A stretch of 64,000 bases of DNA, from positions 4,588,001 to 4,652,000 of the forward strand of contig NC_079233.1 in NCBI RefSeq assembly GCF_028502605.1, given 5' to 3'. The notes beneath the pieces are model-generated. The model did no database searches and had not been told where the DNA came from. It saw only the letters and a list, made by a program, of their open reading frames with translations. A program made the position numbers and the translations under genes. The stretch comes from Trichoderma breve. Its lineage: Eukaryota > Ascomycota > Sordariomycetes > Hypocreales > Hypocreaceae. Positions 41,222-63,425 of this stretch are shown here, piece after piece; position 1 is the stretch's first letter; each line of letters begins with the position of its first letter.

Positions 41222-41412
41222 GCATAAGCATAAGCATGAGGGTATTTAATAGCTTGGTTGCGAGAAGTATTTAGGAGTAGTTTAAAATTGCTAGAATATT
41301 ATTTGATTATACATCTAGAATATATTCGTTATGTTTTGGTCGCTATTCTACAAGCGCCTCTTCTATGCTAGTTACGGGTACAATTTCAGGAAGTTCGTTC
41401 TGTTTTCCAAGC

Positions 41413-41451
41413 ACATATAACCATAGGTAGTGGAGACTTCGGGGTCCTGTC
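41413..41451 (+). pseudogene. Truncated 5S rRNA fragment
   Basis: ACATATAACCATAGGTAGTGG followed by a GACTTCGGGGTCCTGTC-like segment matches the first 38-40 nt of the 5S genes, preceded by the same CCAAGC leader seen at copies 2 and 3. The match then stops; the remaining 80 nt, including the promoter boxes, are absent. It most resembles copy 3. Confidence 0.75.
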
Positions 41452-41519
41452 AGTATTCAAATTGATCATATATACTGGTAAAATCTTCGCATATCCTGTG
41501 ATGAGCCTATAAATTGCCA

Positions 41520-42386
41520 TTAAGCTGTGATTGCCTTGAGCTCATTGGCGATCCAATCCCATGTCCCCAAGCCAATTGAGTTGTAAGACTGAGTCAAAGG
41601 AGGAGCCCAGTGTAAATTATATGAATCATATTGGCTAGTGATGTCCCCAATCGTAATTTTGAACGCGTCGAGGGAGGAGCCCTTTTGTTGATTCTCCTCG
41701 TTTGTGAGAATTGTCTGCGGACCTGGGCTCTCATAATTGATCAAAATTGGAATATGTGGGATTAGAGCCCGAACTTGATCAATTGGTCCAATGTCAACGT
41801 GCCAGTTGAGTGGACTAGGGTCCAACACATACTGTGAACTCCTCTTGACAATTACCGAATTGAATGCAGAATCGCACTCTGCACAGTTAAATGATACAAG
41901 ACTTCCATTGCTTGTGGTAGGCCAGGGATTCATCATGATGTGCTTAAAACCCTGCGTCCGGCAGTAGTTTATGAAATTTTGAGTGCCAGTTTTGCCGTAC
42001 ATGTCGTAGAAGCCTTGCATATTTTCGATGCGCACATAGTCGGTGTACGGCTTGACAGCGGCAGCCATGTCGAGGTAAACCTGGCTGTCCATATCACCCG
42101 CACTAGGTGCCCTCCCGATTCCAGGAATTATGGTGATGTTTCTGGCTTGCACACTGCGAATCATACTCTCGTAGGCTGACGGATTGGCAACATTGAGAAA
42201 GAAGGGAACGAGAGCCGTCACATCAGCCTCATCAAAGGCATCTAAGTATTGCTGATCTGAAATCGAGGGAATGCCCAAGCCGCCATTCAAGGCATAGACC
42301 ATATGGACGGACCTTTGATAAACAGAACCCGCAGCAGCGATGGAAACAAAGCCCGTCGTCACACAGAGAGCTTTGAGCGCCATCAT
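41520..42386 (-). CDS. Secreted protein of unknown family
   Basis: Single exon, 288 residues from ATG 42386 (a second ATG follows directly). The frame continues upstream only through TTG. A signal peptide covers about residues 1-19 (ALCVTTGFVSIAAAGS). The mature part alternates strand-like and helix-like stretches: ITIIPGIGRAPSAGD, YTDYVRIENMQGFYDMYG, FKHIMMNPWP, IPILINYESPGPQ. This pattern suggests a TIM-barrel, glycoside-hydrolase-like fold, but I do not recognise a family and see no assigned catalytic pair. The promoter contains a degenerate copy of the cluster motif about 360 bp upstream and a perfect copy about 525 bp upstream, linking it to the sulfatase/mannosidase cluster. Confidence 0.85.
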   Translation of the reverse strand: MMALKALCVTTGFVSIAAAGSVYQRSVHMVYALNGGLGIPSISDQQYLDAFDEADVTALVPFFLNVANPSAYESMIRSVQARNITIIPGIGRAPSAGDMDSQVYLDMAAAVKPYTDYVRIENMQGFYDMYGKTGTQNFINYCRTQGFKHIMMNPWPTTSNGSLVSFNCAECDSAFNSVIVKRSSQYVLDPSPLNWHVDIGPIDQVRALIPHIPILINYESPGPQTILTNEENQQKGSSLDAFKITIGDITSQYDSYNLHWAPPLTQSYNSIGLGTWDWIANELKAITA

Positions 42387-42742
42387 CTTGGCAACAGGTA
42401 TTTCAGCTGACGGTAGGGAAGAGATTTGTATTGCTGGGTGTGAGGTGTGCGGATGAAGATGAGGAATATTTATTTCTTTTGTAATAAAAAAAGTCTCTAG
42501 CGCGATCAATGCCGTTTCGCCAATTCCAAAGACTATACGATAGCCATGGGAATAGAAAGGATTTGATTAGGAGCGGAACAAACTTGAGCGCACAATTATG
42601 TAGTCCACTGGGCATATCACTAGCAGTAATACTAAAATTTGCAAGCTGCATGCCTAATTAGGCCACACCGACGAAATCGCTTGGGTTTTGTTTCTTACAT
42701 GAAACAGAAGATGAATCACGCAATCGCTTCTACGAATCGGCA

Positions 42743-42757
42743 CGGGGAAATCGCGGA
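42743..42757 (+). promoter_or_regulatory. Degenerate cluster motif, site F
   Basis: CGGGGAAATCGCGGA: both halves are recognisable with the 3-bp spacer changed to AAT and one mismatch in the second half. It lies about 360 bp upstream of the start at 42386. Confidence 0.45.
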
Positions 42758-42909
42758 CACTGTTGTTGACATCGCCATTTTTGGCCGTGGTTTATAAAAG
42801 AATTCATCAGGATTTATCCTTGGTCATTACGTTAGTAACTGTAGAGTTGTCAGGAAGTTGAACGATGTATTAGTGCCTGTAATCTGGAGATTGCCCCGCA
42901 GCAGGGAAC

Positions 42910-42924
42910 CGGGGAGGTCGGGGA
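42910..42924 (+). promoter_or_regulatory. Cluster motif CGGGGAGNYCGGGGA, site A
   Basis: CGGGGAGGTCGGGGA, followed by AGCTGG. It lies between the divergent unknown secreted gene (start 42386) and the SGNH esterase (start 43582). Confidence 0.75.
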
Positions 42925-43302
42925 AGCTGGTTTACAGGGCTTCATTTACGATCTATCGCCCGAAAGAATACGAAAGAGGTCAAAATTGGTTGTCGCTCAA
43001 TGTTGGTTGTCCTAAACAAGAAATAGATGGATTGCATGATTATCTAGGATTCTTCCAAATGTTTTTGAACCCATGATATGAATCAACGATACTGAACAAA
43101 GGTTCACTGAAGGAATTTCCCCCAAAAGTTAGAACATTATCATCAAAGAGTGCAATGCTCTGCCACCATTGTTTCAAACTATACAAGGGCTGTCTAATAT
43201 GCCTTTGTTTGGAAGTGATTACACCAAATACTGTCATAATCTTCAGTCGCGACAATTATCTGTCAATGATTTACTTTGTGGGAGACGGATTAAGGAAGAA
43301 AT

Positions 43303-43317
43303 CGGGGAGACCGGGGA
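43303..43317 (+). promoter_or_regulatory. Cluster motif CGGGGAGNYCGGGGA, site B
   Basis: CGGGGAGACCGGGGA, 265 bp upstream of the SGNH esterase ATG at 43582. Two CGG triplets in direct repeat, 6 bp apart, as for some Zn2Cys6 dimers. Confidence 0.78.
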
Positions 43318-43581
43318 CGTTATCGTTTCCATTTTCATATACAATGGTTTACACCATTTCCAGGATATGTGAGGCCATATCAACCAGGATTTCTCATCCC
43401 GTTTTGAGCCAATAAATGTGTCAAATATGCCAACCTACTCAGGCGTAAAATAATGATAAGGTTGATAATACTCAACCTTGTCTCATATATTCACATCAGA
43501 GAGTGGTTACAAGGAATGTTGCTATCAGCTCTTGTCATTTATTCCTAACCATTCTGAGAAAGCACGCTTGACCACTCTACA

Positions 43582-44898
43582 ATGAAGTTATCATATCTAT
43601 CAGTCGTTTACACCCTCATAACGGCTGCGTGGTGTTTGGACAATCCACACTGGGTTGATATTTGGAATGGGTCACCTTTGCTCGCGAGATTTACTCCTCC
43701 AGACTCTTTTATAACCCCCCAAGGCTACTTCCGCAATGCAACCATCAGACAGACATTACACCTGACCTTGGCAACCGGTGTATTCCGGGTAAAGCTTTCC
43801 AATGAATTCGGTTCATCCCCTCTAGAGGTAACCGCGAGTACAGCTGCATTGACCGCAAACAATACAGCTGGAAGCGACAGTATTGATGCCAGCAGCCTAC
43901 AGCGGCTCACCTATAGTGGCGCCTCTTCCATTGTCATTCCTGCTGGTGGTACTGTTCTTTCGGATCCAATCAATCTATCCACCAGCACCCAACAACATCT
44001 CAGCGTTTCGCTCTACCTTGCCAAGGGCCAGATTGGTACAAATACCACGTCGCATGATGTTTCGCATACAACCACCTGGCTGGGATTTGGAGATCAAACG
44101 GCGAATCAACATATCAACGGCGGATCCTCTGTTACCCACTGGTACTATGTCACAGAAGTGCAGGGCCAGCTTCCTGCAACATCAAGTGCATTGATCTGTA
44201 TCGGAGATAGCATAACAGATGGCACAGGCTCCACCACAAACGGGAATGACCGCTGGGTAGACGATCTTTTCCGTCGAACTCAGGCAGCCCCAGCAACTAA
44301 AAACATCGCTGTTCTGAATGCAGGGATCGGTGGAAATCACCTTGTGACATCTCCTGGGCAGGGTCCATCTGCATTAGAACGGATCAAGTCCATCATCGCT
44401 CAGCCCGGTGTACGATACATAGCCATTCTAGATGGTGTCAACGACATTGGCCACGTTGCCAAAACTGCAGCAGCACAAGATGCTCTCTACGATCAGATGG
44501 TTCAAGCGTTGGAGGAAATAATTGACGAGGTTCATCAAGCCGGCTTACCTATTTTTGGTGGCACTCTTACACCTTCGTTCTATGATCCACCTTCAAATCC
44601 GGACACCTCCAATTATGCCGATCCGCAACGAGCGGCCACCCGGAATCGCCTCAATCTTTGGATCAAGAATGAAGCTAAATTTGACTACGTGATTGACTAT
44701 GCAGCTGTCCTTGCGGACCCAGGCAACCCCGATTCATATAAGGCCCAATATGCCTTCACCAACTACATCCACCCTAATGTAGCTGGTCATCAAGCTATGG
44801 CGGACGCATGGGATCTTCGCGTATTTCAACAATTCAGTGGTACATCGGCTAGTTTCTTTCTCGAGGAGGAAAACGACATTCATGGTCCTTCTCAATGA
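43582..44898 (+). CDS. Secreted SGNH/GDSL esterase
   Basis: Single exon, 438 residues. A signal peptide covers about residues 1-18 (LSYLSVVYTLITAAWC). An N-terminal beta-rich region (about 20-200) precedes the SGNH hydrolase domain: block I GDSITDGTG with Ser210, block II NAGIGGNHL, block III LDGVNDIG, block V YIHPNVAGH. In block V the usual D-x-x-H is N-x-x-H, so the assisting Asp is replaced by Asn while Ser, Gly, Asn and His are kept. Members deacetylate or de-esterify polysaccharides and lipids. Two cluster motifs lie in its promoter. It was probably an extracellular de-esterifying partner for the glycan enzymes beside it. Confidence 0.92.
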   Translation: MKLSYLSVVYTLITAAWCLDNPHWVDIWNGSPLLARFTPPDSFITPQGYFRNATIRQTLHLTLATGVFRVKLSNEFGSSPLEVTASTAALTANNTAGSDSIDASSLQRLTYSGASSIVIPAGGTVLSDPINLSTSTQQHLSVSLYLAKGQIGTNTTSHDVSHTTTWLGFGDQTANQHINGGSSVTHWYYVTEVQGQLPATSSALICIGDSITDGTGSTTNGNDRWVDDLFRRTQAAPATKNIAVLNAGIGGNHLVTSPGQGPSALERIKSIIAQPGVRYIAILDGVNDIGHVAKTAAAQDALYDQMVQALEEIIDEVHQAGLPIFGGTLTPSFYDPPSNPDTSNYADPQRAATRNRLNLWIKNEAKFDYVIDYAAVLADPGNPDSYKAQYAFTNYIHPNVAGHQAMADAWDLRVFQQFSGTSASFFLEEENDIHGPSQ

Positions 44899-45856
44899 GG
44901 AACAAAAGTTTGGTGGGTTGTAGTGAAGCGCATTTCTCATATGATCCAGGACAAGCTCAGGCGGATGTATCTTTTAGTAGCACAAGGACGAAATTAAAGA
45001 AGCCCATGACCCATCTCAAATCCTCAAGGCCACTTATGCATATTATGCTTCTTTTTCCATGATGATTTGAAACTTTTGTGGCTACTTGGCGCCATGATGC
45101 GAATTGAAACGACAAGTCTGCATCGTGCAGGGCAATTGGAGTTCGGTGCGCAAAGTCTGCCAATCTACTTTCGTGAACTTCAGACCATCATTTTATTTTA
45201 GGTTACGTTGAAGTAAGAATTAGATGTGGTTCAAATCAAAGTACCCAGCGCGAATGCTTGGATCTGGGTAGGAAAACGTACCTGGATGTGTCTAGGGCAC
45301 TTCCTACCGGAGACCCTGGGCAAGGTATTGGGGAAAGACAGCTGAAGTGATGCCAAGATACAGGTACATGACCAAGACCATCACCATCGTGAACCCACGT
45401 GCATCGGCGATCGGGGCTTTGGCCTAAATGGCAATAACCATAAATCAAGAATATAGCGCCATCCTTACAGCGGTTTCCCCTGTTTGTTAGATACGAGGGT
45501 CGGCAACTTTGTGCCGATGGCTGTCTGGCGGCGAACTTTGGAAGAATCATACACAAAGAGGGTTAGGCAGGGCCCTCACCAGCTCCCCGAGCTCCCCGGC
45601 ATCGACCTGAATTTCTCAGCCACAGGGCCATCGAGGATAATTGCTTCAACCAATAAGATAGACGACTTATGTCAACGGAATTGAACAGGAATATGTTGCC
45701 ATTTGTGATATTGTTAATGATTGTTCGTGTATCCTGGGTATAAGGGCTTCGTGAGATTCCACAAAGAAGATTTTCGAATGCCAACAATTGATATGTTTGT
45801 CGACTGCCCCTGTCAGCTTCCTTAACACAGTAACGCTGCCGATTAGATTGCTGACT
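44899..45856. promoter_or_regulatory. Intergenic, promoter of the MFS gene
   Basis: No gene seen; carries motif site C at 45584-45598. Open frames across this segment lack domains. Confidence 0.55.
45584..45598 (-). promoter_or_regulatory. Cluster motif CGGGGAGNYCGGGGA, site C
   Basis: On the minus strand CGGGGAGCTCGGGGA, followed by GCTGG as at site A. It lies 259 bp upstream of the MFS start at 45857. Confidence 0.78.
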
Positions 45857-47601
45857 ATGGCCTCTTCATCTGCAGACCTACCGCACCAGGTTGAGCAGTC
45901 AATTCATTCCGCAAACAGTAAAGAGCCCGGTAAATCAGATGTGTCTCAAATCGACAATGATGGATATGGATCTTTTGCCAAAGATGTCTTTCATGATGCC
46001 AAGGCAGCAACTGAGGCGGAGCATATGACAACTCCGCTCCAAGCCTTCAAGAAATATCCCAAGGCTGTTGCTTGGTCCATCTTGGTCACAATGGCCGTTG
46101 TCATGGATGGCTACGATGAATCGTTGATCAAGAGTCTTTTTGCCCAAAAAGCCTTCCGAAAGCGATTTGGCCAGCCGACACCCGCTGGTGGCTACCAATT
46201 GACCGCTGCATGGCAAGCTGGCATGGCCAATGCAAGTGTCATTGGTATCATGATCGGCATGTGTTTCAATGGCTACGTTCGGGAGAGATTTGGAATGAGA
46301 AAGACCATGTTGGCTGCTTGCGTTGTTCTCACTGGTCTCATATTCATATTGGTATTCGCGCAGTCGGTGGCAATGCTTCTTGTCGGTGAACTGCTGTGCG
46401 GTATCTGCTGGGGAATTTTCCATGCAACGGCCCCGATTTATGCCTCTGAAGTTTGTCCAACCGTGCTGCGAGGATATCTCACAACCTTTATCAACTTTGG
46501 CGCTGTGTAAGATCTCCTAAGTCTTCCGATGCAGTCAAGAGGGATCACCCACTAATGAGATATGTGTTTAGATTTGGCCACCTTATCGCAGCTATCGTAT
46601 TGAACGCGACGCAGTCAATGACAGGTAGATGGGCGTATAATCTGCCATTCTCTTTGCAGTGGATTTGGCCTGTCATACTTGTTGTCGGCCTCATATTTTG
46701 TCCTGAGTCACCATGGTGGCTGGTTAGGACAGGTCGTCTCGAAGAAGCAGAGAAAGCCTTGAAACGTCTAACAAGTGGCGAAGGAACTCATGAGGCCGTC
46801 GCTCTGATGGTTCGAACGACCGAAGAGGAAAAGGCACTCGGTGGTTCCTCTTATCGGGACTGTTTCAAAGGGTCAAATCTTCGACGTACTGAAATCGCAT
46901 TCGCTGTCTGGAGCATTCAAGCATTTTCGGGCTTGCCTATGTCGGCTTACAACACCTACTTCTTCGAACAAGCAGGTCTGTCGGATTCCAGTGCCTTCAG
47001 TATGAGCATTGGCAACTCCTGCATGGGAATAGCAGGAACAATACTGTCCTGGTTCCTCCTAACTTGGTTCGGTCGCCGTACCATCTTTATTGGTGGTCTC
47101 GTAACCATGTGTTTCATCCTTTTCATCATCGGCTTTGTGTCACTGGCGCCCTCGTCCAACGATAGTGCGTCATGGGCGCAAGCTGTGATGTTGCTGATTT
47201 GGGTCTTCACCTACGACTTATCTGTCGGCCCGGTTGCTTGGTGCGTTGCTAGTGAGGTCTCAGCAACACAAACACGTGCAAAGACAATTGCCGTTGGTCG
47301 TACGGGCTCTTATATCATCAACATCATCTTCAACGTTGCCACACCCTACATGCTGAACCCCACGGCAGCTAATTGGAAGGGTAAGACAGGCTTCTTCTTC
47401 GGCGGGACATGCGCCCTTTCTCTTGTTTGGACTTTCTTCCGTCTCCCAGAGTTCAAAGGCAGAACATATGAGGAGCTTAACATTCTCTTCTGGAAGGAAG
47501 TGCCGGCTAGAAAGTTCAAGAGTACAAGCGTCGACGCTTATAGCGAGGAGTCCAGCAATGCTCCGGCTATTGAAGAGGTGACAGCAGCCAAGCAGACTTG
47601 A
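45857..47601 (+). CDS. MFS sugar porter (maltose/alpha-glucoside permease-like)
   Basis: Two exons (45857-46506 and 46572-47601) give 559 residues; intron 46507-46571 is GTAAGA...GTTTAG, phase 2. ATG 45857 is the first in frame. A long hydrophilic N-terminus precedes about twelve membrane segments, starting AWSILVTMAVVMDGYDESLI, which has the sugar-porter DGYD motif. Other family marks are GYVRERFGMRKTM, PESPWWLVRTGRLEEAEKAL, and GRTYEELNILF at the end. Fungal porters of this type carry disaccharides and other glycosides by proton symport in the plasma membrane. Context suggests uptake of a glycan or sulfated product destined for the cytosolic sulfatases next to it; the real substrate is unknown. 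Confidence 0.93.
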
Positions 47602-47924
47602 CCCTCGCTATCATGGACAATAAGTTCAGCTAGATAGTGAACTTAACTCCCCAGACAATATTTGAATTGGACATTCATAATTTCATTTTAATTAATGATT
47701 ACACTGCATTTTGCTTGACGTTTGGCTGTTGCTAGTAGCATGTTACTTGTATTCGAACCATCATATTGTTTGATGTTCTTGGTGTTGCATGTTTACTGTC
47801 TACATGTATCATTGCCTTCTTCGCCTTCTTCTGTGTCTCCCCGTACGTGTCTGACAGTAATGGCAAAGTTTCATGTCCTGTGAAATTATCTCAGTATCGA
47901 AAATAACCAAGGTATATATCTATA
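47602..47924. other. Convergent intergenic, no gene seen
   Basis: 3' flanks of the MFS and sulfatase genes; nothing recognised. Confidence 0.5.
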
Positions 47925-49971
47925 TCAACCACCCCTAGTAACCTGACCCCTCCTCGTCTCTTCACCAGCTTTAATGTGCATCCAACCCTTCATCTGTTCC
48001 AAGTGATTACCCCCAATGAGATCGTTCCGATCAAAGCCATAGTCTTGGCCAATTTTCAGAATCTCTTCATGCGGGATCCATACGACACCAGTCTTCTGAA
48101 CATAGTCGTCCCAGAGACGCAGCATTTCTTCTTTCTTTTCTGGCTCCTTTTCTGATAAATCTTCCATCTCACCAGGATCACGGTAAATGTTGTATAACTG
48201 CCAGCCGTTGCCGCCTTTGGCTGACTCAATGTTGACCATTTTCCACTCTCCCTTTCGGATCGCACCACGACCGAAGAGTTCCCAGCCCATGTATGTGTCA
48301 GTTCCTGAATGAATGCCGTCTGTAGACTCTGATGTGGAATTGCTGGAAGTCATAAAATCCAACCAGGACTTGCCACGCATAGCGGCCACCTTCCTGCCCC
48401 TAAACATTCCATCTTTCTCAGCAGGATGTTCTATGCCTGCCATTTGCAAGAAAGTCGGACAAAGGTCCATTACAGTCGAGAAGGACCTGATGATGGTACC
48501 ATTTTGAAGGTGTTTTGCAAACTTTGGGTAGTGTATCACTAAAATGTGGTTAGATGGAACGCCTGAAAGTTGCAAATGGTGGAAGGACGGTTGCTTACCG
48601 AAAGGAACACGAATACCTCCCTCGGTAGAGAAGGCTTTGTATAGGCGGCTGGGTGCTGTACTTGCTTGAGCCCATCTCGAACCGTACCATACGTAACTGT
48701 TGGCATGTCCGACGTTCTCGAAGGAGTTATCATAGTACTTGCGAATCGTTGCAACGACATCTGGCCCCATTGTTGGCTGAGCCTCGATATCGGCACCTTC
48801 TGCCCCATTGTCACTCTGAAAGATAATGACTGTATTATCAAACTCGCCGCTCTGCTTCAGATATTGAATCATTCTTCCGACATTTTGATCAATGTTATCC
48901 ACCATGCCGGCGAAGCACTGCATCGCCCGAGCACTGAGCTTGCGTTCCATTGGAGTCATCTCATCCCATTCGCGATTGGTGGGTCCTGCAACGACATCAT
49001 GTGGTGTGATATTTTCACTGATAATGCCAAGTTTCTTCATTTTTCTCAATCGCTTTTCGCGAAGGACTTCGGGGCCGTCATCGTATACGCCCTCGTATTT
49101 GTCGCGATCAGCATCACTACATTGTAGTGGCCAGTGCGGTGCGAGGAATGGAAGATATGCAAAGAATGGCTTTTCGCTATTATCAGGGGATCGGTCCTTT
49201 AGCCAATCAATAAGGTTATCAGTGTAGGAGTCAGAAGAGTAAAACCCTCTCGGGTCGTTAGTGAGGTTCGGCTCCACGTTGTATTTCCTGCCGTCCATCG
49301 TATATAGTTGCGGGCTGACGCGAGTGAAGAATGGGGTCTGATGTTTCTCCTCTAGTAGCGGCTCCCAGCCATAGTGATTGCTCTGCCCTCCAAGGAGGGT
49401 GAATGCTCTGTCAAAACCTCGTGCCGCAGCATTACTCTCGGGCGTATATCCAAGATGCCACTTGCCAGAAATAAGCGTATGGTAGCCGTTGTCTTGGAGG
49501 ATCTCGGACAACGCAGCCACGTCATGATTGAGAAATCCTTCGTACCCCTTGACATTAAATTTTGACGAGACTTTGCCCTTATTCTCGCTCATCATTCCCA
49601 CTCCAGCGATGTGATTGTCCGTTCCGCTCAGAAGCATCGATCGCGTAGGGCTACAGGCCGCCGCGGCATAGTCTTTGGAAGTGTTAGTCAGAGCTTCAAC
49701 TTACCCCCAGCTATAACTGAACTTACAATCTGTAAACTGGGCTCCATCACGCGCGAGTGTGTCTAAATTAGGGGTATGAATCTCGCTCCCAAAACATCCT
49801 ATATCGCTATATCCCAGGTCTTTATATGGGTCAGCCGAATTCGTGGAAGAAGATTTTATTGTCGAAGGTAGGGGGGAGTTGAGGGCCTTGGGAAGGGAGA
49901 TCTCGCCACATACCATCGGCCAAGATGACCAGGAAATTCGGCCGACTGTCTTTCTTATTTGCGATTGGCAT
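47925..49971 (-). CDS. Sulfatase, arylsulfatase (AtsA-like) type
   Basis: Four exons (49971-49914, 49819-49727, 49672-48599, 48538-47925) give about 612 residues. The last intron (48539-48598, 60 nt) is in frame, so it must be removed to restore VPFVIHYPKF. The start [23 protein letters not shown] has the metal-binding DD and no signal peptide. The modification motif is [12 protein letters not shown] with Cys57, the residue converted to formylglycine in CxPxR sulfatases. [23 protein letters not shown] and FQSDNGAEG (metal-binding DN) complete the active site. It hydrolyses sulfate esters, likely in the cytosol. It is transcribed divergently from a second sulfatase with one motif site between them. 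Confidence 0.92.
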
Positions 49972-50647
49972 TTTGAACTTAGAGGCAACTTCTATATGGC
50001 GCCTTCAAGATACTTGTCATATCAAGCCCCCACAAGATCGTGACGGATCTTTCTAATTATATGTTCATTCGAACGCTCGCCGCCAATTTTACAGTTCTCT
50101 TCTCATGCATTCTCTCTTCTAATTACCCCCCACGTAACTGCACCATGGTGTAGACGATGATCTGATGCAGGTGTTGTCCTGCCTAGCTGAATTCCCCGGT
50201 CTCCCCGAGGACCCGCCATCCTTCGTGCGAGACTTTACCATGTATTGATCTCAATCATGCTTAGCTTCAGATCGATCACAACATTTTTACCGGGCAATAA
50301 ATGCACCGAAAGCGGAGATACATGCGTATTTTTCTCACCTCACTCTCCCTTTCTATGACTACATGTATGCGGGGAAATAGCTTATCTTCGCTGGAGGCAT
50401 TGAAATTTGCCCCTCTATGCGATTGCGCTATTGTATATCTATATTTTGCCAGAGCAAGAGGTAGTGGTAGATCCTATTGAATTAGCAAATGCTGCCACCT
50501 CAAGGGTCGTGTAGTTTGCTCCAGAGGCAAATGCTGATACTTAGAATGAATGTTGAATACACTTCAGGTTACAATCTTAAAGACACCCAGTTTGTTTAGG
50601 CTTTATCCTCCCAATCATCTCAGCTGGCAACACAGCCGACCAGCAAG
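49972..50647. promoter_or_regulatory. Divergent promoter of the two sulfatases
   Basis: 676 bp shared by sulfatase 1 (minus) and sulfatase 2 (plus), with motif site D at 50193-50207 and a lone half site CGGGGA near 50370. Confidence 0.65.
50193..50207 (-). promoter_or_regulatory. Cluster motif CGGGGAGNYCGGGGA, site D
   Basis: On the minus strand CGGGGAGACCGGGGA, 222 bp upstream of sulfatase 1 (49971) and 441 bp upstream of sulfatase 2 (50648). A single site could serve both. Confidence 0.8.
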
Positions 50648-52233
50648 ATGGCAGCAACACAACCAAACATTATCTTTATTATGGCGGATGATCATGCAGC
50701 AAAGGCTATCAGCTGTTACGGGGCCGGAATAAACGAAACACCAAATCTTGATCGAATCGCCAATGAAGGCATGAGGTTTGACCATTGTTACGTTACGAAT
50801 TCTATCTGTGCACCAAGTCGGGCGGCCATCATCACCGGAACTCACAATCATGTCAATGGGGTGTTAACCCTTAACTACAAGATCAACAATGTTCTCCCAA
50901 TGGTGCAAAAACATCTGAAGCACGCTGGCTATCAAACCGCAATGATTGGCAAATGGCATCTGGGTGAAGGACCCGCACATGAACCTCGCGGGTTTGACTT
51001 CTGGGATGTCCTCCCTGGCCAAGGCCTCTACTTCGACCCGATCTTCATAGGACCTAATGGCCGACACATGGAGAGAGGATACGTCACCGATATCATCACG
51101 GATAAGACACTCGATTTCATTCGTAACCGAGATACAACAAAGCCATTCTTTGTCATGTGCCACCACAAAGCCCCTCATCGATCTTGGGAGAATCATCCTA
51201 AACATAACTCGCTCTACCAGGAGGACATCAAGGTGCCAGAGAGTTTCAACGACGATTATAAGAATCGAGCCAAAGCTGCAGCTGCGGCAAAGATGCGAGT
51301 CACCGAAGATTTGAGGTATAATGACCTCGGGCTTTGTCAACCCGAAGGCGGATCAGAAGTCGGCGAGTTGGATGAGCCAAACTTTCCGCAAAGGCCGGAT
51401 CGCAAGATTCCATTCCCCGAAGATGTGTCGTCAATGGTCTTGATTGACAAACTGACGGGCGAGAATTTTCGATTCAAAAATCAGGATGAATTGCGCCACT
51501 TCAAGTATCAGCGATACATGAAGCGATATTGTCGCACCGTTCACTCTGTGGACGAGAATGTCGGTCGAATCCTAGATTACGTTGATAGTCTTGGTAAGGA
51601 GGTGGCAGATAATACGATGATTATCTATACATCCGATCAGGGTTTCTTCCTCGGAGATCACGGATGGTTTGATAAGCGCTTTATCTACGAAGAGTCGTTC
51701 CAGATGCCGCTGCTGATCAAATATCCCAAGGAAGTCAAGCCTGGCTCTATTTGCAACGACATCGTGTCAAATATCGATTTCGCGCCTCTTTGGTTGGACT
51801 TGGCAAATTATCCAATACCTTCATACATGCAAGGCTTCTCGTTTAGGAAGCTCCTCCAGGGAGAAACACCAGAGAACTGGCAAAAGGTAGCATACCATCG
51901 GTATTGGATGCACAACGACTCGCCACATGAATGCCGGGCTCATTATGGTGTCCGAAATCAGCGCTACAAGGTCATATACTGGTAAGGGTATTCAGAAATA
52001 TCGGTCGTAATTTTCTATCTGACTCAAATGATCGCAGGTATAACAAGGACTTCAAGTTGGCGGGCACAAGGCCTGGTGGAGAGCCACCCGAGTGGGAGCT
52101 GTTTGACTGTGAGAAAGATCCACTAGAGCTTCTCAACCAGTATCACAATCCTGAATTTGCAGATGTTGTGAAAGAGATGACTAGGCTACTGGAAGAAAAG
52201 ATGGGAGAGATTGGTGATGTGTGGGATCACTGA
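50648..52233 (+). CDS. Sulfatase, N-acetylglucosamine-6-sulfatase/choline-sulfatase-like
   Basis: Two exons (50648-51981 and 52038-52233) give 509 residues; intron 51982-52037 is GTAAGG...TCGCAG, phase 2. Start MAATQPNIIFIMADDHAAKAIS carries the metal-binding MADDH, with no signal peptide. The formylglycine motif is SICAPSRAAIITG with Cys54. KWHLGEGPAHEPRGFD, HHKAPHRSW, and YTSDQGFFLGDHGWFDKR supply the other active-site residues. The C-terminus WELFDCEKDPLELLNQY is typical of the mucin-desulfating/GlcNAc-6-sulfatase branch. Probably cytosolic. Together with sulfatase 1 it provides two differing sulfatase specificities in one unit. Confidence 0.93.
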
Positions 52234-52984
52234 ATCTCTGCATGCGGACAAGATCAATAGTTCTGCTTCCCATGATAAGACCCCAACTCATCACCCATAA
52301 GTACAACGAGACATTAATTTTAAAGAGCAATGCAATATGTCTATCAATCCTGTGAAAATCGCATATGTAATTCCTTGCGTCGACTGCTACGGTTTGGTTA
52401 AGGCGTCATGCCCCGCGGCGGGGAGGAAGTGGCATAAGCAATAAGCTACAACGTTCTCCAACGCTGATCCATCGCGAAGCCGCTATTAAACTCACTGATA
52501 ATTTTCCAACCCCTCAGGAGATGCACCAGTGCCAGGAAGTCGGCACCGAGGCCCGAAGAGGGGAAGAGGGGGAATTAACGACAAGTCGAAGGAATTTGCC
52601 TAAGCATTTCCTTACTACATGGCCCAATGACAAGCTCATAGGTAGTGCGCGTATTTGTTGAACAGAGATAAACCCCCCTAACCAAAGCCGACCCTGCAAA
52701 TTGGTCATTGGAGGTCAATGTGGATTCTGGTAGAGGACTCGGGTCGCGCTCTGTTTCCTACATTGGTCTCCCCGGACTCCCCGACCACTCTAGCGTTTCC
52801 ACATTCTTAGCTTTCACACCAGCATTCGGAAAGAAGGCCCGTTTAATACGATGGTTACATTGCAAGATTGCTGAAACATGAGAAAGAACTGATATGGCAT
52901 GATTAAAACAAGGCACCTGGGTTGCACACACGATACACTCATTCACCCGTAAACTCAACTTGCCAAGTTTAGATCGGAAACGCC
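52234..52984. promoter_or_regulatory. Intergenic, promoter of the mannosidase relic
   Basis: No gene seen. Site E lies at 52769-52783, and a half site CGGGGA lies near 52420. Confidence 0.55.
52769..52783 (-). promoter_or_regulatory. Cluster motif CGGGGAGNYCGGGGA, site E
   Basis: On the minus strand CGGGGAGTCCGGGGA, about 200 bp upstream of the first plausible ATG (52985) of the GH38 gene. Confidence 0.75.
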
Positions 52985-55900
52985 ATGGATTCTCGAATAC
53001 ACAGTCGCCAAGGGTGTTGTTCGCAGCCTACTATGAAACCTGTCGGCAAGAAGGTCGGTCACTTATAGTTCTCGCGAAATACATCTTACTACCTATTATA
53101 AGCTCGTAAGCTCATTATAGTAGTAGATTCGGTCAATCCATCAAAAGTGACTTACACACTTCACGGATACGAGACAGTACAAGGAACAAAGCATATTTCC
53201 GTAATCCTCATATCGATTGGCGTCTCTGGGGCTTAGCAAATGCTGATGATACTCACAGAAAACTTGCTCATGCAACAGCCTCTGGTGGTGACAATGTTCG
53301 ACTCTGGGTAAGTTACCCTGAAGCTTGCTCTGGAGGCATCTTGTTGACCTTTTCAGGTGTACTCTCCAACTGCACCGTCACGCCCTACGTTCGTGGAAGT
53401 CAAATCTCAGGAGTTCAAACCCACGGAAGTAGGCGCTTCTTTCGGACCAAGTTGGTCTACCCATTGGTTTCGGGTGGAAATCGTTGTGCCACAATATATG
53501 ACGAAATATTATCATCTAGAGTTCCATTGGAACTCTAATAGCGAGGCTATGGTTTGGACGGAAGATGGCGAGCCTGTGCAAGGCCTAACAGGGGGGAGTG
53601 AACGTGGAGGTGAGAGACAGGAATGGGTCTTCCCTCAACAGTGGAAGGATGGGAAAAGACATACCTTTTTCATCGAAATGGCATGCAACACCATGTTTGT
53701 AAATGCTGAAATGCACGACATTATCCAGCCTCCTCCCACGGATAAGTACTTCAAACTTGAAAAGGCAGATATTGTGGCCGTCAATGTTGATGCACGGCAG
53801 CTACTATTTGACTTTTACGTCATAAGGGGTATGCGGTCCCCTTGCTATGAAAATTCGTACTACGGTGAGCTACTAATATTTGACGATAACAGATGCGGCA
53901 CTGTATCTACCTCAAGACTCGTGGCAATCGCATCGTGCTCAGCAGGCATGCGATGAAATCCTAGACACTTTCTGCTGGCGACGGTAGCTCGGGTGCTATC
54001 TCAAAGTGCAGAGAAATTGCTCGAAGCTATCTTGGTGACAGAATTGACACAGAAGAGGTTTTCAAGACAGATCAGACAGCAATAGTCTCGGCTATTGGCC
54101 ACTGCCATATCGACACATGTTGGCTTTGGCCTTGGGATGAAACAAAGAGAAAAGTCGCTCGTTCCTGGGTTAGTCAATGCAACCTTATGGACCTATATCC
54201 TGAGTACCGGTTCTGCTGCTCCCAAGCACAGCAGTACAAATGGCTGGAGACTTTGTATCCAACAATCTATGAGCGGGTCAAGGAAAAGATCGCCAAGGGA
54301 ACCTTCCAGCCCATTGGTGGAAGTTGGGTTGAGCACGATACAAACCTCCCCAGTGGTGAATCTCTGGTCCGTCAATTTCTATACGGACAGCGATACTTTC
54401 AGAATCGATTTGGTCACAGACATACTACATTCTGGCTACCTGACACTTTTGGTTATTCGGGTCAACTCCCCCAGATTTGTCGCTTAGCGGGAATGACGAG
54501 GTTACGCAGAAGCTAAGTTGGAACAACATCAATAACTTTCCACATACGACCTTCAACTGGGTGGCATTGGATGGTCGGAGCAAAGTGCTTTGTCATATGA
54601 CACCTGCAGAGAAATACAATGCGGAGGCGACATTGCAAGACCTCGTACGCTGCGAAACGAGACACAAGTCACTGGATCAGGATAACACCTCGCTATTAGT
54701 CTATGGAAAGGGTGACGGAGGAGGCGGTCCAACAATCGCGCATTTGGAAAGCTTGAGACGATGCCGTGGCATGAGCGATCAAGTAGGTCGCCTGCCTCGC
54801 GTTCAACAGGGTAATTCTGTGGACGACTTCTTCTCTCAGTTAGAGCATAGAGAAAAGGATACCAATAATCCTTTTGCTACTTGGTTCGGTGAACTGTACT
54901 TCGAATATCATCGAGGCACTTATACTACCCAAGCTAAGACTAAGTTGAACAACCGACGGGCCGAGATCTTCCTACATGATCTGGAGTATTTGGCCACGCT
55001 TGCCAGTATACAAAAGGATTCAACTTACAGGTACCCAAAGAAGGAGATTGACGAGATGTGGGAGAAGGTTCTGCTTTGTCAATTTCATGACTGCCTTCCA
55101 GGGAGCTCGATTGAGATGTGCTACGATGATACGGATAAAGTGAGTTATTACACTCCCACTGTTTCATATTGCTAGTTGAACTGAAGACTAACGATACTAG
55201 CTCTACGACGAAGTATTCTCCGTAGGAAATACAGCACTTACGAATGTTGCGACTGCGCTTGAGCTAAACTTGCAACCAACAGATTCTGCCAACCTTGTGG
55301 TAGTAAACACGCTCGATTGGGACAGGGTTGGTCTAGTACCATTGCCAGCCATAGCTCATTCCGAGGATAACCAGAAGTATGGTTTCTACCTATGTGAACC
55401 CGGGATATCACCACTTCAGCCCCTGTCAGACGTTTCTTTCGAGGCAGCGACCATATCCGAAATCAGCAAGGGTGTCTGGATCTTGTCAAACAGCCAGTAC
55501 CGTGTCACGGTGACTCAGGGCACCATCATCTCGCTCTATGACCTCCGACGAGACCGTGAAATAATCCCTGAGGGTGGAAGAGCCAATCAGCTCGTTGTGT
55601 TTGGTGATATGACCCTTTATCATCAGGCCTGGGATGTGGAAACATATCATCTCTCCCACGGCCGCGAACTGGAAGGAGGGGTCTCGTATGGCTGAAAGTG
55701 GTCCTGAGAGAGTTTCAGTGACAACAATCACAAAGATATCTGGAAACAGCTCGATCAAGACTACTATATCGCTCAATGCTGTCATTGATCCCCAAGAGGA
55801 AAGTCATATTGAATGCTCTGCAGACGAGGACTGGCACGAGAACATGAAGTTCCTCAAGGTCCAGTTCCCAGTGGATATTTACAACACAAAGGCATCATAT

Positions 55901-56566
55901 GAGACTCAGTTCGGTATTGTGGAACGGCCAACACATTACAACACCTCCTGGGATATGGCCAAGCTCGAGGTGTGCTGTCACAAATGGGCCGACTTATCGG
56001 AAGCAGGATACGGTGTGAGCATTCTTAACGACTCCAAATATGGCTTCGCTACGAGCGGAAACATGATGCGATTGAGCCTGCTCCGTTCACCAAAGGCTCC
56101 CGATGCCAACGCTGATATAGGTCGTCATCATATTAAATGGGGCATTTTCCCTCACGAAGGACCTGTAGGTTGGCAAACAGTGAAGAAGGGCTTTGAGTTC
56201 AACATTCAAGTCCGTATTGCCTCGTGCCCTAATGGGATCCGCTCGCCGGAGTTGTCAGCGAGCCCCGTCAAATTGAGAGACGGTCTAGGACTAGTGCTGG
56301 ACACCATCAAGAGAGCAGAAGATGATACGGATGTGAGTTGCGGCAATTTGCCTACAAGGGATGGCAAAAGCATCGTATGCCGAGTATATGATGCCATTGG
56401 TGGGAAGAACAGGGCTTTCTTAGAGACCGGGCACGCTAAGATTCAGAAGGCGTGGAAATGCAATCTCTTGGAAGATGACCTAGAGGAGCTGCCCATTGTG
56501 AATGGTGGTGTAGAGATAGAGCTGCAAAGATTCGAACTGGCTACCTATAGACTACTTTTAGAGTAG
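52985..56566 (+). pseudogene. GH38 alpha-mannosidase, frameshifted
   Basis: Nearly full-length homology to class II (Ams1-type cytosolic/vacuolar) alpha-mannosidases. Recognisable in order: RNPHIDWRLW, intron near 53309-53357, [44 protein letters not shown] with the zinc ligands, [16 protein letters not shown] with the nucleophile Asp, CQFHDCLPGSSIEM, and a C-terminal beta domain ending FELATYRLLLE. Three places need a frame change: near 53972 (EILDTF then [20 protein letters not shown]), near 54500 (LAGMTR then [12 protein letters not shown]) and near 55682 (GRELEGG then RMAESGPERVSV). I could not confirm the first exon; ATG 52985 (MDSRIHSRQGCC...MKPVGKK) is plausible but its donor is non-canonical. 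Either a recent pseudogene or sequence error. Confidence 0.82.
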
Positions 56567-56712
56567 CTGCTAGATGTTGGAATCACTGGACGTGGTGCCT
56601 CTATGCTGAAGTCTGTCGCAAAGCAAGGGTAGAATTTAGAGGTGAATCAATTATGCGCACGAATAACATCTATAATCCATGAGCCATCATAGACTAGCCT
56701 CTCCAGATAAGT

Positions 56713-58818
56713 CTACTCATGGTCTTTCGTGACGTGTTTCAGGAGTGTTTCTAGCACTGGCCGTGCCTGATCAATGTATGCTGCGCGCGCTGTGCGAGCA
56801 GCAAGCACCCGGAGCGACAACGAAACCAAGGCTTGCCAGTTGTGTACATACAAAGGAGGTCCACGCAGTTGCGCAGCCAGAATCAATAGCGTTGCCGTGG
56901 AGATGGCACGATAGCTGAACCAGGTCGCCTCGTAATAATGTGGTCTTGTGAGTCGCTTGATCGTGAGAGCACAGTACTGGAGGCATTTCTGTGCTAAGGG
57001 TAATACACGATCAAAGTATGGATCTGTGTCGGGCTTGTGGAGAGCGTAATAAAGTAATGGTCTGTAAGAAATCTGGCGCCATTGGAGTTGCCTGCATTCC
57101 AAGATAAATGCTAGGTCTTCGGGAGCACCATCGTCAGCATCAAATTCCAATGTTTTGGGTAATATTGTTCGCCATTGGTCAAGCTCGTGCTCCTGGAGAA
57201 TGGCCTGAGCCATTACATGCTCTACATTCGCCAGCCAAACATGTTCTCCTGGCTCGTAGAGTAGATCATTAATAGAATCAGCCTTTTTCCTCAGCGCTAT
57301 ACACGCTAGATAATAGTACCAGCTATGTTCTTCTTGTTGTTGTATGACGCTTGATGGCAATATCTGCCAATTTGAGTTTGTGTTGGATGAATCATCATTC
57401 ACACTGCTGTGGAATGAGGTCCAGGAAGGGAGACTTGGAAACTCTCGAGGAAAGTGTAAGCTGGTAATACCCGCTGGTGGAAGGTCGAGCTCTTCTCGAA
57501 GGTCTCTGTGATACTTTTAGCATATGACATGACCTATGTCTTGGACAAGGCAGACGTACCGCTCAGTTCTACAACATGAAAAGTACAGTCGCTCTAAAAC
57601 ATGGAACTCTGTGTCGAGACTGTCATCTCTCACGTTCCTATGGGATAGTATAAACTGCAAACGACTGCAAGCCTGACTATAATGAACCCAGGCATTGGTA
57701 GGTCTCAACCGACACACTTCATATAGTCCAGCTAGAAAAAAGCACTGAACCGATGTGAGCGTGACGTCTAAGAGACCAAGGCGCTTCTTGGCCGCAAGGT
57801 AGAACGCATCGCCAGGTATGCAGTTCATTCCCAGGGAGTCATAGAATGTCTGATTGTAGGAACCTGGGGAAGGGTTTGAGTATTCAAACGACTCCCCGAC
57901 CTGCTTCACGGTATTGGCAAGGGCACATGCCAGCATCTATTGGAATTTAGCAATTGGAATACAGTCCAAGTTGATTTCCGACGAGAAGTCAGGTTCATCT
58001 CACTACAACGCAGGAGTCTTCACCCCAATCGAACCCACCGTCTATTATCGTCTTGACCTGTAAGTTGAATCTTGAGACGTCGAATATCGGATTCTTCACG
58101 TGCGCTACTGTTAGATACCTCTGGCAGAGGTTTTGAATATGAGCCTTGTCTGTTGGTGATAATGGTGTTGTTATTTCCTCCACCAGGCCTTCAGCATTCC
58201 CCGTTCTAAACCCAGCCGGGGGCTCATCCCTCTGACTATGTGGGCTATGGTTTGACGTCGATGGACTAGATGGCAGTCTAGGTGAGATAATGCCTTGAGA
58301 AATGATGTTATGAATTATTGGCCACTTGGTTGTAGCTTCAAATGAGATCCCGGTTGCTTTGACAGCATGTGCGGGCCGTCCTAGATTAGACGCTCCTGGG
58401 AAAGTGGTGTTTTGCGCTGTGTCTAAAGAAGGCGAAGATGAATGAAGCGATTTACAGTTAGAATCAGTCGAATCTGCATAGGCTGGTCGTTGAGAAAGCT
58501 CCAAAAGTTGAGCAACATGATTGATGCGATTCATGACATCTGTCAACGTTGGCTCCCTGCTCACAAGGTAGGTTACACCAGAGTCCAGTGACTTACAGGC
58601 AAGGTACAGGTACCTTAGTCAATCACTTACTGTGGAATTTGCTGTCCATCCAGCTCCCCATATACACATTGAACGTGGTTCTCCACGCAAACACCACATG
58701 AAGGCCGGCGGTTGTCGCATTTTGTTTTCTTCGAGCGACACCGACGACAAGCCGTATGGCCTCGCTTGAAGCGCTTAGCGCGACGTACCTGAGTCACCTC
58801 TTCCTCCCAGAAGTTCAT
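56713..58818 (-). CDS. Zn2Cys6 fungal transcription factor
   Basis: Four exons (58818-58631, 58559-58004, 57936-57560, 57505-56713) give about 637 residues with phases 2, 0 and 2. ATG 58818 is the first in frame; upstream only TTG. The DNA-binding cluster HTACRRCRSKKTKCDNRRPSCGVC lies near residues 21-50 with six cysteines and a preceding basic stretch KRFKRG. A Ser-rich linker follows. The middle region (WGEDSCVVMLACALANTVKQ, LLDVTLTSVQCFFLAGLYE, YSQACSRLQFIL) matches the fungal-specific TF domain. It is transcribed towards the mannosidase and is the only regulator in the 42-59 kb cluster, so it is the best candidate to bind the CGG-N6-CGG motif. A lone CGGGGA half site occurs near 59050 in its own promoter. 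Confidence 0.92.
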
Positions 58819-60029: not shown

Positions 60030-61859
60030 CTAGACGGCGCAGAAGAAGGGAATGTAAGCAGGATCCAGAGTCCTGTAAATGAAAGGCATATTCTGACTCA
60101 AACCCTGGCTGTCGAACGCACGGCTGCGGATCTGCTGGCTGAGCTTTTGCATACTGTCCAGTAAAACCTTGGAAGCACTTTTTGTGTCCTGATTTAAGCT
60201 CTGCACAGTAGTGGCATCAAAAGCATCCTTAAGTGTCCGTCCGTCGCTGCCGTAAAATGGTCGATTAAAAGAAGCCATAAATCCTAGGTAATGAACAGCG
60301 GTGGCAGGGTCTGGCAGATACGGCATGAGGTCTTTGACGCCCTTCTCCTTCGGGATAGCAGTGTAAATGGCGGGAATATGGAATGGCAGGGTGCCGGAGG
60401 CAATTGGAGCGCCCCCGTTGACGCTGTGGTGCGAGACTGAGGTAGCATAGGCGAAGTGGGTGAGGACATCGATGAGAACTTTCTTGCTTAGGTTCTTCTC
60501 TTGGGGAAAGTCCTGGGCCTTGGCCATTGTGCTGGCCTCGTTGAACCAGTTGTGGACCTCAAAGTCGCCAGAGAGGTCATACTCGCTTTTATAGTACGAG
60601 TTGACAAAAGATGTGAAGAAGATGTGGTAGTTGTCACGGATGCGCTTGGCATCGTCGTAGAAGGGGAAAGAGTTAAAGACAGACTTTCCATTATCATCAA
60701 TCAAACCACGGGCTTTCAAGTTGTTTTCCAGATATCCGCTCTGGTATCGACCGTCAACGGGCCAGCTGTCAGTAACAAATTGACGGCAGCCAAACTGATT
60801 GAAGACCATGAGCTGATCCCAGTGGCCGCCAGGGTTGAAGCAAAGCTCCTCTCCAACGATACGAGAAGAATAGGCTTGCACCATGAGGCGCTCGAGAAGA
60901 ATCATTATGGGGTGCTTCTCGCTAAGAGTGTGAAGAGCAGCTTGGTGAACAGATTCGGTGACGTCGTGCGACACAACAAGGTGCAGCATTTGTGCGTGGA
61001 ACATATCATTGGCGTTGAACATCATCTTTGCCAGCAACCAGTCATTCGCGGAGTCAAGAGGAGTGTAAGTCAGATCGGCGTCAACATTAGTGCGGATGGC
61101 CAAAGGCAAAAAGTTGCCAGACTCTGGGTCGATGTAGAAGTAGGCGCTGCAAGCGACGGGGAAACGCTGGACGACAGTAGCAACGTCGTACTTGGCCTGA
61201 TAGGAGTGGTCGACAATGAAAAGGCGGTTGCTAGCCTGAAGAGACTCAAGCGTATTTCCAGAACCGACAATCTTACTCGTTATGACATCGTCTAGTGGAA
61301 AAGGAAGAGGCTCGTCGGCCATAACGCGTCGGACGGCATGGGGGTGCTCGCTCAGGCGTTCCATGGAGAAAAGGAGATCTTGGGTCGCATTGGAAATGAT
61401 ACCAGGAGCAATACCTCGAGGATTTGTATTATTGAGCTGGCCATCGTAGAGGATTCTTTCGTAGTCTTGCCAACTGTTGAGGCCGCCATTCTGCAATGTG
61501 AAATTAGTACTTAAATCCATCTTCCAGTATGATGAAAGTGTGGCCGTTACAGTTTGAATAGCTCCTTGGAGGGACTGGACGTCGAGAGCAATCAGCTCAT
61601 CAATGATGGCACGGTCCTGGCTCCATGCATCGTAGTCGGCCTTGCTACGAGCATTGCCAAGTGTGCCATTGGGGAAGGGGGCGGCCTCGCCGGTGAGGGA
61701 CGGGCCGTAGATGAAACCATCACGACGAGCAGAGACAGCAGCGGCACGAGCTTCGGGGTTGGGATCAAGCTGAGGGATGCAAGCTGGGTAGGTTGTGGGA
61801 GCAGCCAAAGCAGAGCCGAAAAGGACCGCAGCAGCAGCGACGTAATCGGTAGATCGCAT
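60030..61859 (-). CDS. Secreted manganese-type lipoxygenase
   Basis: Single exon, 609 residues from ATG 61859; a longer frame upstream starts only with TTG. A signal peptide covers about residues 1-20 (YVAAAAVLFGSALAAP). The catalytic lipoxygenase domain has WLLAKMMFNANDMFHAQMLH with metal ligands His288 and His293, SHHSVNGG with His477 and Asn481, and ends FFCAV, the C-terminal Val being the fifth ligand. Fungal enzymes of this type use manganese and oxygenate linoleic or linolenic acid to hydroperoxides outside the cell. They lack the plant PLAT domain, as here. All ligands are intact. Manganese versus iron cannot be settled from sequence alone. N-x-S/T sites fit glycosylation. Confidence 0.92.
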   Translation of the reverse strand: MRSTDYVAAAAVLFGSALAAPTTYPACIPQLDPNPEARAAAVSARRDGFIYGPSLTGEAAPFPNGTLGNARSKADYDAWSQDRAIIDELIALDVQSLQGAIQTVTATLSSYWKMDLSTNFTLQNGGLNSWQDYERILYDGQLNNTNPRGIAPGIISNATQDLLFSMERLSEHPHAVRRVMADEPLPFPLDDVITSKIVGSGNTLESLQASNRLFIVDHSYQAKYDVATVVQRFPVACSAYFYIDPESGNFLPLAIRTNVDADLTYTPLDSANDWLLAKMMFNANDMFHAQMLHLVVSHDVTESVHQAALHTLSEKHPIMILLERLMVQAYSSRIVGEELCFNPGGHWDQLMVFNQFGCRQFVTDSWPVDGRYQSGYLENNLKARGLIDDNGKSVFNSFPFYDDAKRIRDNYHIFFTSFVNSYYKSEYDLSGDFEVHNWFNEASTMAKAQDFPQEKNLSKKVLIDVLTHFAYATSVSHHSVNGGAPIASGTLPFHIPAIYTAIPKEKGVKDLMPYLPDPATAVHYLGFMASFNRPFYGSDGRTLKDAFDATTVQSLNQDTKSASKVLLDSMQKLSQQIRSRAFDSQGLSQNMPFIYRTLDPAYIPFFCAV

Positions 61860-62756
61860 GTTGAAAGTGAAACCGAAGATAATAATTGACAAGCCTTATG
61901 ACCGTGGTACTTTTCATAGTCAAATTTGGTAGCAACGAGACTCTTTTATAGAGAAATGATACCATTACCATAGATCTGCAGGAGTTGGCACTCCACTCCC
62001 TTGTATAAATTTGACGCCCCTGCATTTGGCAGTATGCTTAAAATGCTACAGTACAAATATGCCTGCTAACCAAGATTCGTGTCAGCAACCTTCCAAAAAG
62101 GGAGTTGAAGTCGGAAATTTATTCCAAGCTGGGTTTTCTTTATATCGGCTTGCCCAGCTAGCCTCGGCACTTTTATAACTGTTGGCATTTCTTAGAGTTT
62201 AAGAAGCGCACTCCTAGCGAGCATCTAAAATTTCAATTCTCACGTCAGCTGCGGCCCCTATTACCCTGCTCCGTGGCCAACTGCCATATTGAGCCGGCCC
62301 ACCACATTGGATTTGTCTTCATCTTAACTCATTACCTAACGCCGTGATGCAACTCGCCTGAAAAGGTAGAAACGGATCAAGGTTAGAGCAGCGCTCGAGG
62401 ACTTGATTCCAGTCCAGTTTGCGGGTCTGGCCGAGGTTCCGAGCCTCGTTCTTTGCTCCGAGTGCAGTCTCATTATACCCGAGGACAACAAAGTCATTTA
62501 CGATCACAGACCACTACGCTAACAGCTGCTGAGGACAGGAAGCCGGAGACTGGACTGGAGACAGTCGCCGCCAGTCCAGTTGAGACTCATTCGGTTATAG
62601 ACTGGTTCAGTTTCTTAACGAAACTTTCAATACGAACGGAACATTTATTCATGGCAGTCCGTATTCGGCCTAGATGCCGTTTCATGTCTTCAAAGGTGGC
62701 ACAGGAACCACGTCTATCGACTTTAGATATAATCCACATTGCTCACCAGTCCAAGC
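61860..62756. other. Intergenic, lipoxygenase promoter
   Basis: No gene seen. The TATA-like box of the lipoxygenase is listed separately; short CAGTC-rich repeats occur near 62545-62615. Confidence 0.5.
61941..61950 (-). promoter_or_regulatory. TATA-like box of the lipoxygenase gene
   Basis: TATAAAAGAG on the minus strand, about 82-91 bp upstream of ATG 61859. Confidence 0.55.
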
Positions 62757-62875
62757 ACATACGACCATAGGTAGTGGAGAATTCGGGGTCCCGTCTGCTC
62801 CCCCATAGACAAGCCACTAACCGGCAGATTAGTAGTTGAGTGGGTGACCATCAGCGAACACCGGCTGTTGTATGT
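62757..62875 (+). rRNA. 5S ribosomal RNA, dispersed copy 3
   Basis: 119 nt from ACATACGACCATAGG to GGCTGTTGTATGT, followed by TTTTTCTTTTT. Helix II uses TAGTGG and CCACTA in place of TAGAGG and CCTCTA of copy 1, so pairing is kept. The AAGCCACTAACCGG and GTGGGTGACCATC control boxes are present. The CCAAGC leader immediately upstream is shared with copy 2. Confidence 0.9.
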
Positions 62876-63425
62876 TTTTCTTTTTGGGGGTTTCTCTCTT
62901 TTTATATTATTTTGTTGCTGCGATCTGATCTTGCGGTCTCTCTGGTAGTGTGTTGGGTGTCTTGCATTTAATGCGGGTGAGAAGAGCCTAGTCTCTTTTC
63001 GGCCAAGCACATACATAGTAATTCGGGCTGTCAGCCTTCAAGACTCTTTGACTGGGAACACTCAGTAATCCCTCCCCCAAAAGAAAAATTAGAGAAAGAA
63101 AGAAAAGAAAGAAAGGAACTTATTCATCTCCCATTTGGAATACTTCTTTGTACTGCCCCTTTGTTATGTCACAAGCATCCAAGTTGTTTACCATAAGTGC
63201 TAGCTGGCGTTGTCCTATTTTTGAGTTTAACACTGGGGACCCGTATTACCTAGATTATCACTCTCGATCAATGAGGTTAAGATTTATTTATTTCTTTACA
63301 AAAGCCCACTGTATGAACCTCCTCCTCAGTATATATTTCTAACATGAACACCACGAAACTCTTAGAAGGCTCTTCTGTCCAGTCAATAGAGAATAAATTA
63401 CACGTTCATTCATAGTGAATCCTAT
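62876..63425. other. Intergenic with possible second 5S scrap and GA-rich microsatellite
   Basis: CCAAGCACATAC then ATAGTAATTCGGG at 63003-63028 looks like an internally deleted start of a 5S copy. A GAAA-rich microsatellite lies at 63086-63116. No gene seen. Confidence 0.45.

Follow-up and report, generated by a model that had tools for sequence, protein, structure and literature searches.

A paired CGGGGA motif, in its strict form exclusive to one sulfatase gene cluster of Trichoderma breve, is a candidate site for the adjacent Zn2Cys6 regulator

The DNA analysed here, called the window throughout, is a 64-kb stretch (C2:4588001-4652000) of the 38.5-Mb, nine-contig genome of Trichoderma breve. 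It holds a cluster of genes for processing sugars and sulfate next to a gene for a Zn2Cys6 regulator. An earlier sequence-only reading had noticed five perfect copies of a 15-bp motif between these genes, two CGGGGA halves separated by a 3-bp spacer, and had taken them for a cluster-specific operator of that regulator. The genes and motif copies are listed below, with distances measured from the motif centre to the ATG.

41520..42386, minus strand, gene for a 288-aa protein of no known family (0 Pfam families)
42743..42757, plus strand, degenerate motif copy with one mismatch, in its second half; spacer AAT
42910..42924, plus strand, motif copy 1, CGGGGAGGTCGGGGA; 665 bp before the SGNH esterase ATG and 531 bp before the gene start at 42386
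43303..43317, plus strand, motif copy 2, CGGGGAGACCGGGGA; 272 bp before the SGNH esterase ATG
43582..44898, plus strand, SGNH/GDSL esterase gene (Lipase_GDSL_2, E 7.7e-24)
45584..45598, minus strand, motif copy 3, CGGGGAGCTCGGGGA; 266 bp before the porter ATG
45857..47601, plus strand, sugar porter gene (Sugar_tr, E 5.2e-63) with one intron at 46507-46571
47925..49971, minus strand, sulfatase 1 gene (Sulfatase domain; four exons; CSPTR)
50193..50207, minus strand, motif copy 4, CGGGGAGACCGGGGA, between the divergent sulfatase genes; 229 bp from the sulfatase 1 ATG and 448 bp from the sulfatase 2 ATG
50648..52233, plus strand, sulfatase 2 gene (Sulfatase and SGSH_C domains; one intron; CAPSR)
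52769..52783, minus strand, motif copy 5, CGGGGAGTCCGGGGA; 209 bp before the provisional mannosidase ATG
52985..56566, plus strand, GH38 alpha-mannosidase gene of the Ams1 type, with GH38 domains in different frames and a provisional start
56713..58818, minus strand, gene for the Zn2Cys6 regulator, 636 aa (exons 58818-58631, 58556-58004, 57936-57560 and 57505-56713)

The gene at 41520-42386, missed by the sequence-only reading, adjoins the same first promoter region as the esterase gene, with motif copies 531 and 924 bp away. Its product has a signal-peptide-like start, as judged by eye, is 97% identical to a T. harzianum protein, and has 33 relatives; organism names are given for three of these, all of them fungi. 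Its predicted fold has a pLDDT of 92.8, and among the 50 PDB matches listed for the model no query TM-score exceeds 0.52. Among solved chains, sulfatase 1 is nearest to the arylsulfatase 1hdh (E 3e-182); sulfatase 2, which is 98% identical to a T. chlorosporum protein, is nearest to the N-acetylglucosamine-6-sulfatase 5g2v (E 1.2e-127) and then to the mucin-desulfating sulfatase 7p24. Their CSPTR and CAPSR follow CxPxR, the motif converted to formylglycine, and the converting-enzyme family PF03781 has one match in the genome, scoring 51.9 bits over profile positions 155-255 of 255. As inspection by eye revealed no obvious signal peptide in either sulfatase, we infer that desulfation would take place inside the cell following uptake.

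The reading frame of the mannosidase is broken, which had also escaped the earlier reading. Profile positions 2-140 and 141-269 of PF01074 fall in two frames that overlap by 4 bases near window position 54500, and the order of blocks relative to a paralogue places a second frame change between about 55680 and 55694. There is no room for an intron at either. A third change near 53970 is likely from the sequence. The broken mannosidase is either a pseudogene or the result of an assembly error; a relative whose N-terminal domain is intact lies at C3:5319640-5320431.

The regulator gene is intact. A splice check bore out the span of 56713-58818 that had been proposed for it, with canonical introns and an unbroken 636-aa frame encoding Zn_clus (3.9e-10) and Fungal_trans (1.6e-7) domains. 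An alignment to GAL4 covers residues 22-82 and extends through the dimerisation (coiled-coil) helix, and against solved chains the DNA-binding domain matches PPR1 (1.4e-7) and GAL4 (4e-7), both of which bind inverted repeats, better than HAP1 (0.0014). The protein is 97% identical to one from Trichoderma sp. SZMC 28012. It has 39 homologues, the first standing for 29 member sequences, the next at 60% identity over 61% of the length and then one at 32%; those with names are mostly hypothetical proteins. Within the T. breve genome there are 39 matches to the regulator, mostly to the domain alone, and the best besides its own exons is 27% identical. A signature scan, which requires the Zn2Cys6 signature to lie in one frame, found one within the 64 kb, that of the regulator, and no other Zn2Cys6 gene in the window. 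FUR1 of T. reesei was considered as kin and set aside: the excerpt of its description compares it with XYR1 and gives no sign of kinship with the regulator.

All five motif copies were recovered on the strands and at the positions first reported, with the spacers GGT, GAC, GCT, GAC and GTC, and the case for them proved stronger than had been claimed. Each is intergenic and lies 209-665 bp upstream of the named genes, in line with the earlier estimate of about 200-670 bp. The degenerate copy reported at 42743 is likewise present; at 13.6 bits (~42742) it is the next-best place in the window for a weight matrix made from the five copies, which themselves score 25-27 bits each, a match by construction. 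The cluster has four promoter-bearing intergenic regions, 42387-43581 (divergent), 44899-45856, 49972-50647 (divergent) and 52234-52982, and an exact copy occurs in every one of them, two in 42387-43581. None of the three convergent regions (41222-41519, 47602-47924 and 56567-56712) has a copy. The motif can face either way with respect to the genes, as upstream activating sites do. It is absent upstream of the regulator gene, where the best matrix score is 5.1 bits. When the cluster's intergenic regions and the regulator's upstream region were compared by BLAST, matches were 11-26 nt long, the longest lying away from the motif. Since the flanks are unrelated, it is the motif itself that has been kept, rather than some larger repeat; the absence of long similarity between the promoter regions rules out such a repeat around it.

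The copies share a strict geometry. In all five, the two CGG triplets are repeated in the same direction, six bases apart (GGAGGT, GGAGAC, GGAGCT, GGAGAC and GGAGTC). Neither the GGA that completes each half nor the G directly behind the first half varies, which suggests, from the sequence, contacts beyond the CGG. In each of the five, one half is preceded by T and the other by C; this may reflect asymmetry, overlap with a CRE1 site or chance (about 1 in 16). AGGGG is a stress element, and it was ruled out here, as 10 of 10 halves read CGGGG. If the 3-bp spacing is favoured across the genome, as a general factor would make it, the preference is weak at most. Direct pairs number 160 in the genome against 210 in the reversed control, and among the first 100 of the 160 spacing 3 accounts for 10, five of them the cluster's own, and spacing 2 for seven. 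Inverted pairs number 33 against 32 in the control, with none in the window. Among the same 100 direct pairs, an identical 23-mer, CGGGGAGAATTGTTCTCCGGGGA, with CGGGGA at both ends, occurs at least three times (C2:4738292-4738314, C2:5093294-5093316 and C2:5714724-5714746) and is possibly part of a dispersed repeat.

To quantify the clustering, we counted a loose form of the motif, CGGGGANNNCGGGGA, and a strict form, CGGGGAGNYCGGGGA. The loose form has exactly five exact matches in the 64-kb window, in agreement with the earlier statement that there is no further full copy, and every one of 100 shuffles had none. If two mismatches at most are permitted, the window has nine matches against 3.0 expected. 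Across the 38,549,885 bases of the genome it has 14 matches, five of them inside one 9.9-kb interval, and its reversed control has 15, so the genome total is ordinary and the clustering alone is not. At the rate outside (nine matches), 0.0023 copies would be expected per 9,874 bp, giving a Poisson P(>=5) of 5e-16. Were 14 sites scattered at random, the probability of finding any five of them in one 9,874-bp stretch would be about 4e-11. The strict form has five exact matches in the genome, all inside the cluster interval. With one mismatch it has 20 further places, all outside that interval, and its reversed control has 44 matches at up to one mismatch. The suggested enrichment in this interval is thus found for both forms. 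The prospect, raised with the original proposal, that the motif might be equally common in unrelated promoters genome-wide falls away for the strict form; the loose form's total, 14 against 15, remains that of its control.

Because the motif had originally been picked by eye, we also ran a word-count control with low-complexity words excluded. When all pairs of 6-mers with gaps of 0-12 were counted over the 10 kb of the cluster, the commonest word had five copies, whereas the best such word in 30 first-order Markov shuffles had two (29 of 30) or three (1 of 30). For repeats of the same 6-mer with gaps of 0-20, the best count was two in 14 control stretches (five from the window and nine from other loci).

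Outside the cluster, five of the nine loose-motif sites lie within an open frame of at least 150 codons. A scan of 10 frames from eight of the nine loci (L012 being left out) matched an amidohydrolase, a 6-phosphogluconate dehydrogenase-type protein, PP2C, an OPT transporter, squalene epoxidase, RRN3 and a chloride channel, the remaining three frames having no family match. There was no sulfatase, mannosidase, esterase or sugar porter in the 10 frames, which sets aside hidden regulon members at these sites. The outside loose matches lie partly in unrelated frames, as expected by chance.

Five paired CGGGGA copies together in the promoters of one gene group are probably that group's own on-switch. 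We regard it as almost certain that the motif is a functional cis element and as very probable that some Zn2Cys6 protein reads it. Our preferred reading, in which the protein encoded at 56713-58818 reads it as a cluster-specific upstream activating site, is somewhat less secure and still probable; here the regulator is assigned to the motif by proximity. Of the operator originally proposed, the cluster-specific element has stood up well (5/5 strict matches, 4/4 promoter regions, unrelated flanks), and the adjacent protein as its reader is plausible. A dimer of the regulator would bind CGGGGA-N3-CGGGGA through both of its CGG triplets in a head-to-tail arrangement (CGG-N6-CGG), this binding would switch on, as one unit, the genes between 41520 and about 56566, and the trigger would be an inducer, probably a sulfated or mannose-containing sugar. 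Zn2Cys6 dimers usually bind CGG pairs, whose orientation and gap set the specificity (PMC5559640 and PMC5415576). Head-to-tail binding by a dimer fits the direct CGG-N6-CGG. Several findings count against the preferred reading: there is no site before the regulator gene, its domain is nearer to PPR1 and GAL4, one presumed target is a frameshifted mannosidase, a CRE1-type CCGGGG occurs once per copy, and the loose motif's genome total does not exceed that of its control.

Another protein might read the same cluster-specific element, either a Zn2Cys6 protein from elsewhere or a zinc finger of another class, leaving the adjacent regulator with some other role. The motif-free promoter of the regulator would suit this, as would the many further Zn2Cys6-like domains in the genome and the presence of a DUF3425 protein in the window. 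Against it, the lack of any exact strict match outside the cluster suits a local, dedicated factor better than one acting in trans, and the window's single Zn2Cys6 signature adjoins the cluster; we consider such a reader unlikely. Lower still do we place the idea that the copies are sites of CRE1, the carbon catabolite repressor, mediating glucose repression via CCGGGG with the pairing incidental. The CRE1 consensus of T. reesei, SYGGRG (PMC4062390), occurs once in each of the five copies, and the region between the two sulfatase genes has seven SYGGRG in 676 bp, or six once copy 4 is masked, where the window has 2.8 per kb. It is the short, frequent site of a global regulator. Yet it is one half per copy that matches, not both (5/5), three of the four promoter regions stand at 2.1-4.0 per kb, and SYGGRG does not predict the 15-mer, neither its constant second CGGGGA at a 9-bp period nor its exclusivity to a single locus.

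The least credible account, to which we give hardly any weight, is that the copies have no function and arose by local duplication, conversion or chance. Copies 1 and 3 do agree over about 23 nt if one gap is allowed, and 16 bases are identical between copies 2 and 4. However, the longest BLAST match between promoter regions, 26 nt, lies away from the motif, chance is excluded by the shuffles, word counts and clustering statistics, and all promoter regions are served and no convergent one.

The sequence-only reading had likened the spacing to that of Hap1-type factors. The Hap1 site is CGG-N3-TA-N-CGG, with a gap of six, and the direct repeat and six-base gap do agree in all five copies; TA at gap positions 4-5 is found in none of them, and the regulator's domain is not closest to HAP1, its weak match (0.0014) being surpassed by those to PPR1 and GAL4. 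To our knowledge, Hap1 is not a cluster regulator. That yeast Hap1 binds a direct repeat is given by a title cited in PMC5415576. In Aspergillus, AmyR and InuR regulate the use of sugar polymers; they resemble the present case in being Zn2Cys6 proteins and in recognising CGG pairs, and differ in their gap of eight (PMC5468973). A title cited there gives a CGG direct repeat for AmyR. A parallel in arrangement is TerR of the Aspergillus terreus terrein cluster, a cluster-specific regulator whose own cluster carries the directly repeated CGG site TCGGHHWYHCGGH in its promoters (PMC4360782). The pair proposed here shares this arrangement, but the TerR gap is five rather than six (5/5 here), its halves are shorter, and its cluster is biosynthetic rather than sugar-processing. 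Regulator-operator pairs within one cluster are thus already known, and by analogy the present one would be another example, an unusually clean one, given that the strict form is confined to a single locus in the whole genome. Among the matches listed in a literature search, no work tied the motif to a fungal regulator, and none described such a cluster in Trichoderma or how a soil fungus regulates its sulfatase genes.

The result is a sharply testable candidate regulator-operator pair derived from sequence alone. It would open up the question of how a soil fungus controls its sulfatase genes, and the motif could serve as an orthogonal promoter module. We put forward, more tentatively and at rather less than even confidence, a one-locus regulon: a long direct-repeat operator of two six-base halves and nine-base period, its strict form nowhere else in the genome, might be read by this regulator and so control a fungal equivalent of the sulfated-glycan utilisation loci of bacteria, with trimming outside the cell, uptake by the porter and desulfation inside by the two sulfatases. 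The motif also draws the limits of the cluster, in that genes with the site belong to it. The SDR gene at 40277 has no motif copy before its start and falls outside, as does the lipoxygenase gene at 60030. The latter (60030-61895, minus strand) adjoins the regulator gene and likewise has no copy before its start.

Other features of the window were noted in passing. Three complete dispersed 5S rRNA genes lie at 11649-11768 (minus strand), 28209-28328 (plus) and 62757-62876 (plus), and a 46-nt 5S-like fragment lies at 41406-41451, where the cluster ends on its left side, with the SDR gene to one side and the gene at 41520-42386 to the other. A DUF3425 protein, of a kind that often proves to be a bZIP regulator, is encoded at 27106-27927 (plus strand), far from the motif copies. 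A degenerate repeat with 29-bp spacing occupies A+T-rich DNA at 12414-12577. At 6241-8541 (plus strand), a 767-aa frame combines Transferase (residues 32-418) and ECH_1 (511-766) domains and encodes an apparent acyltransferase/enoyl-CoA hydratase fusion enzyme.
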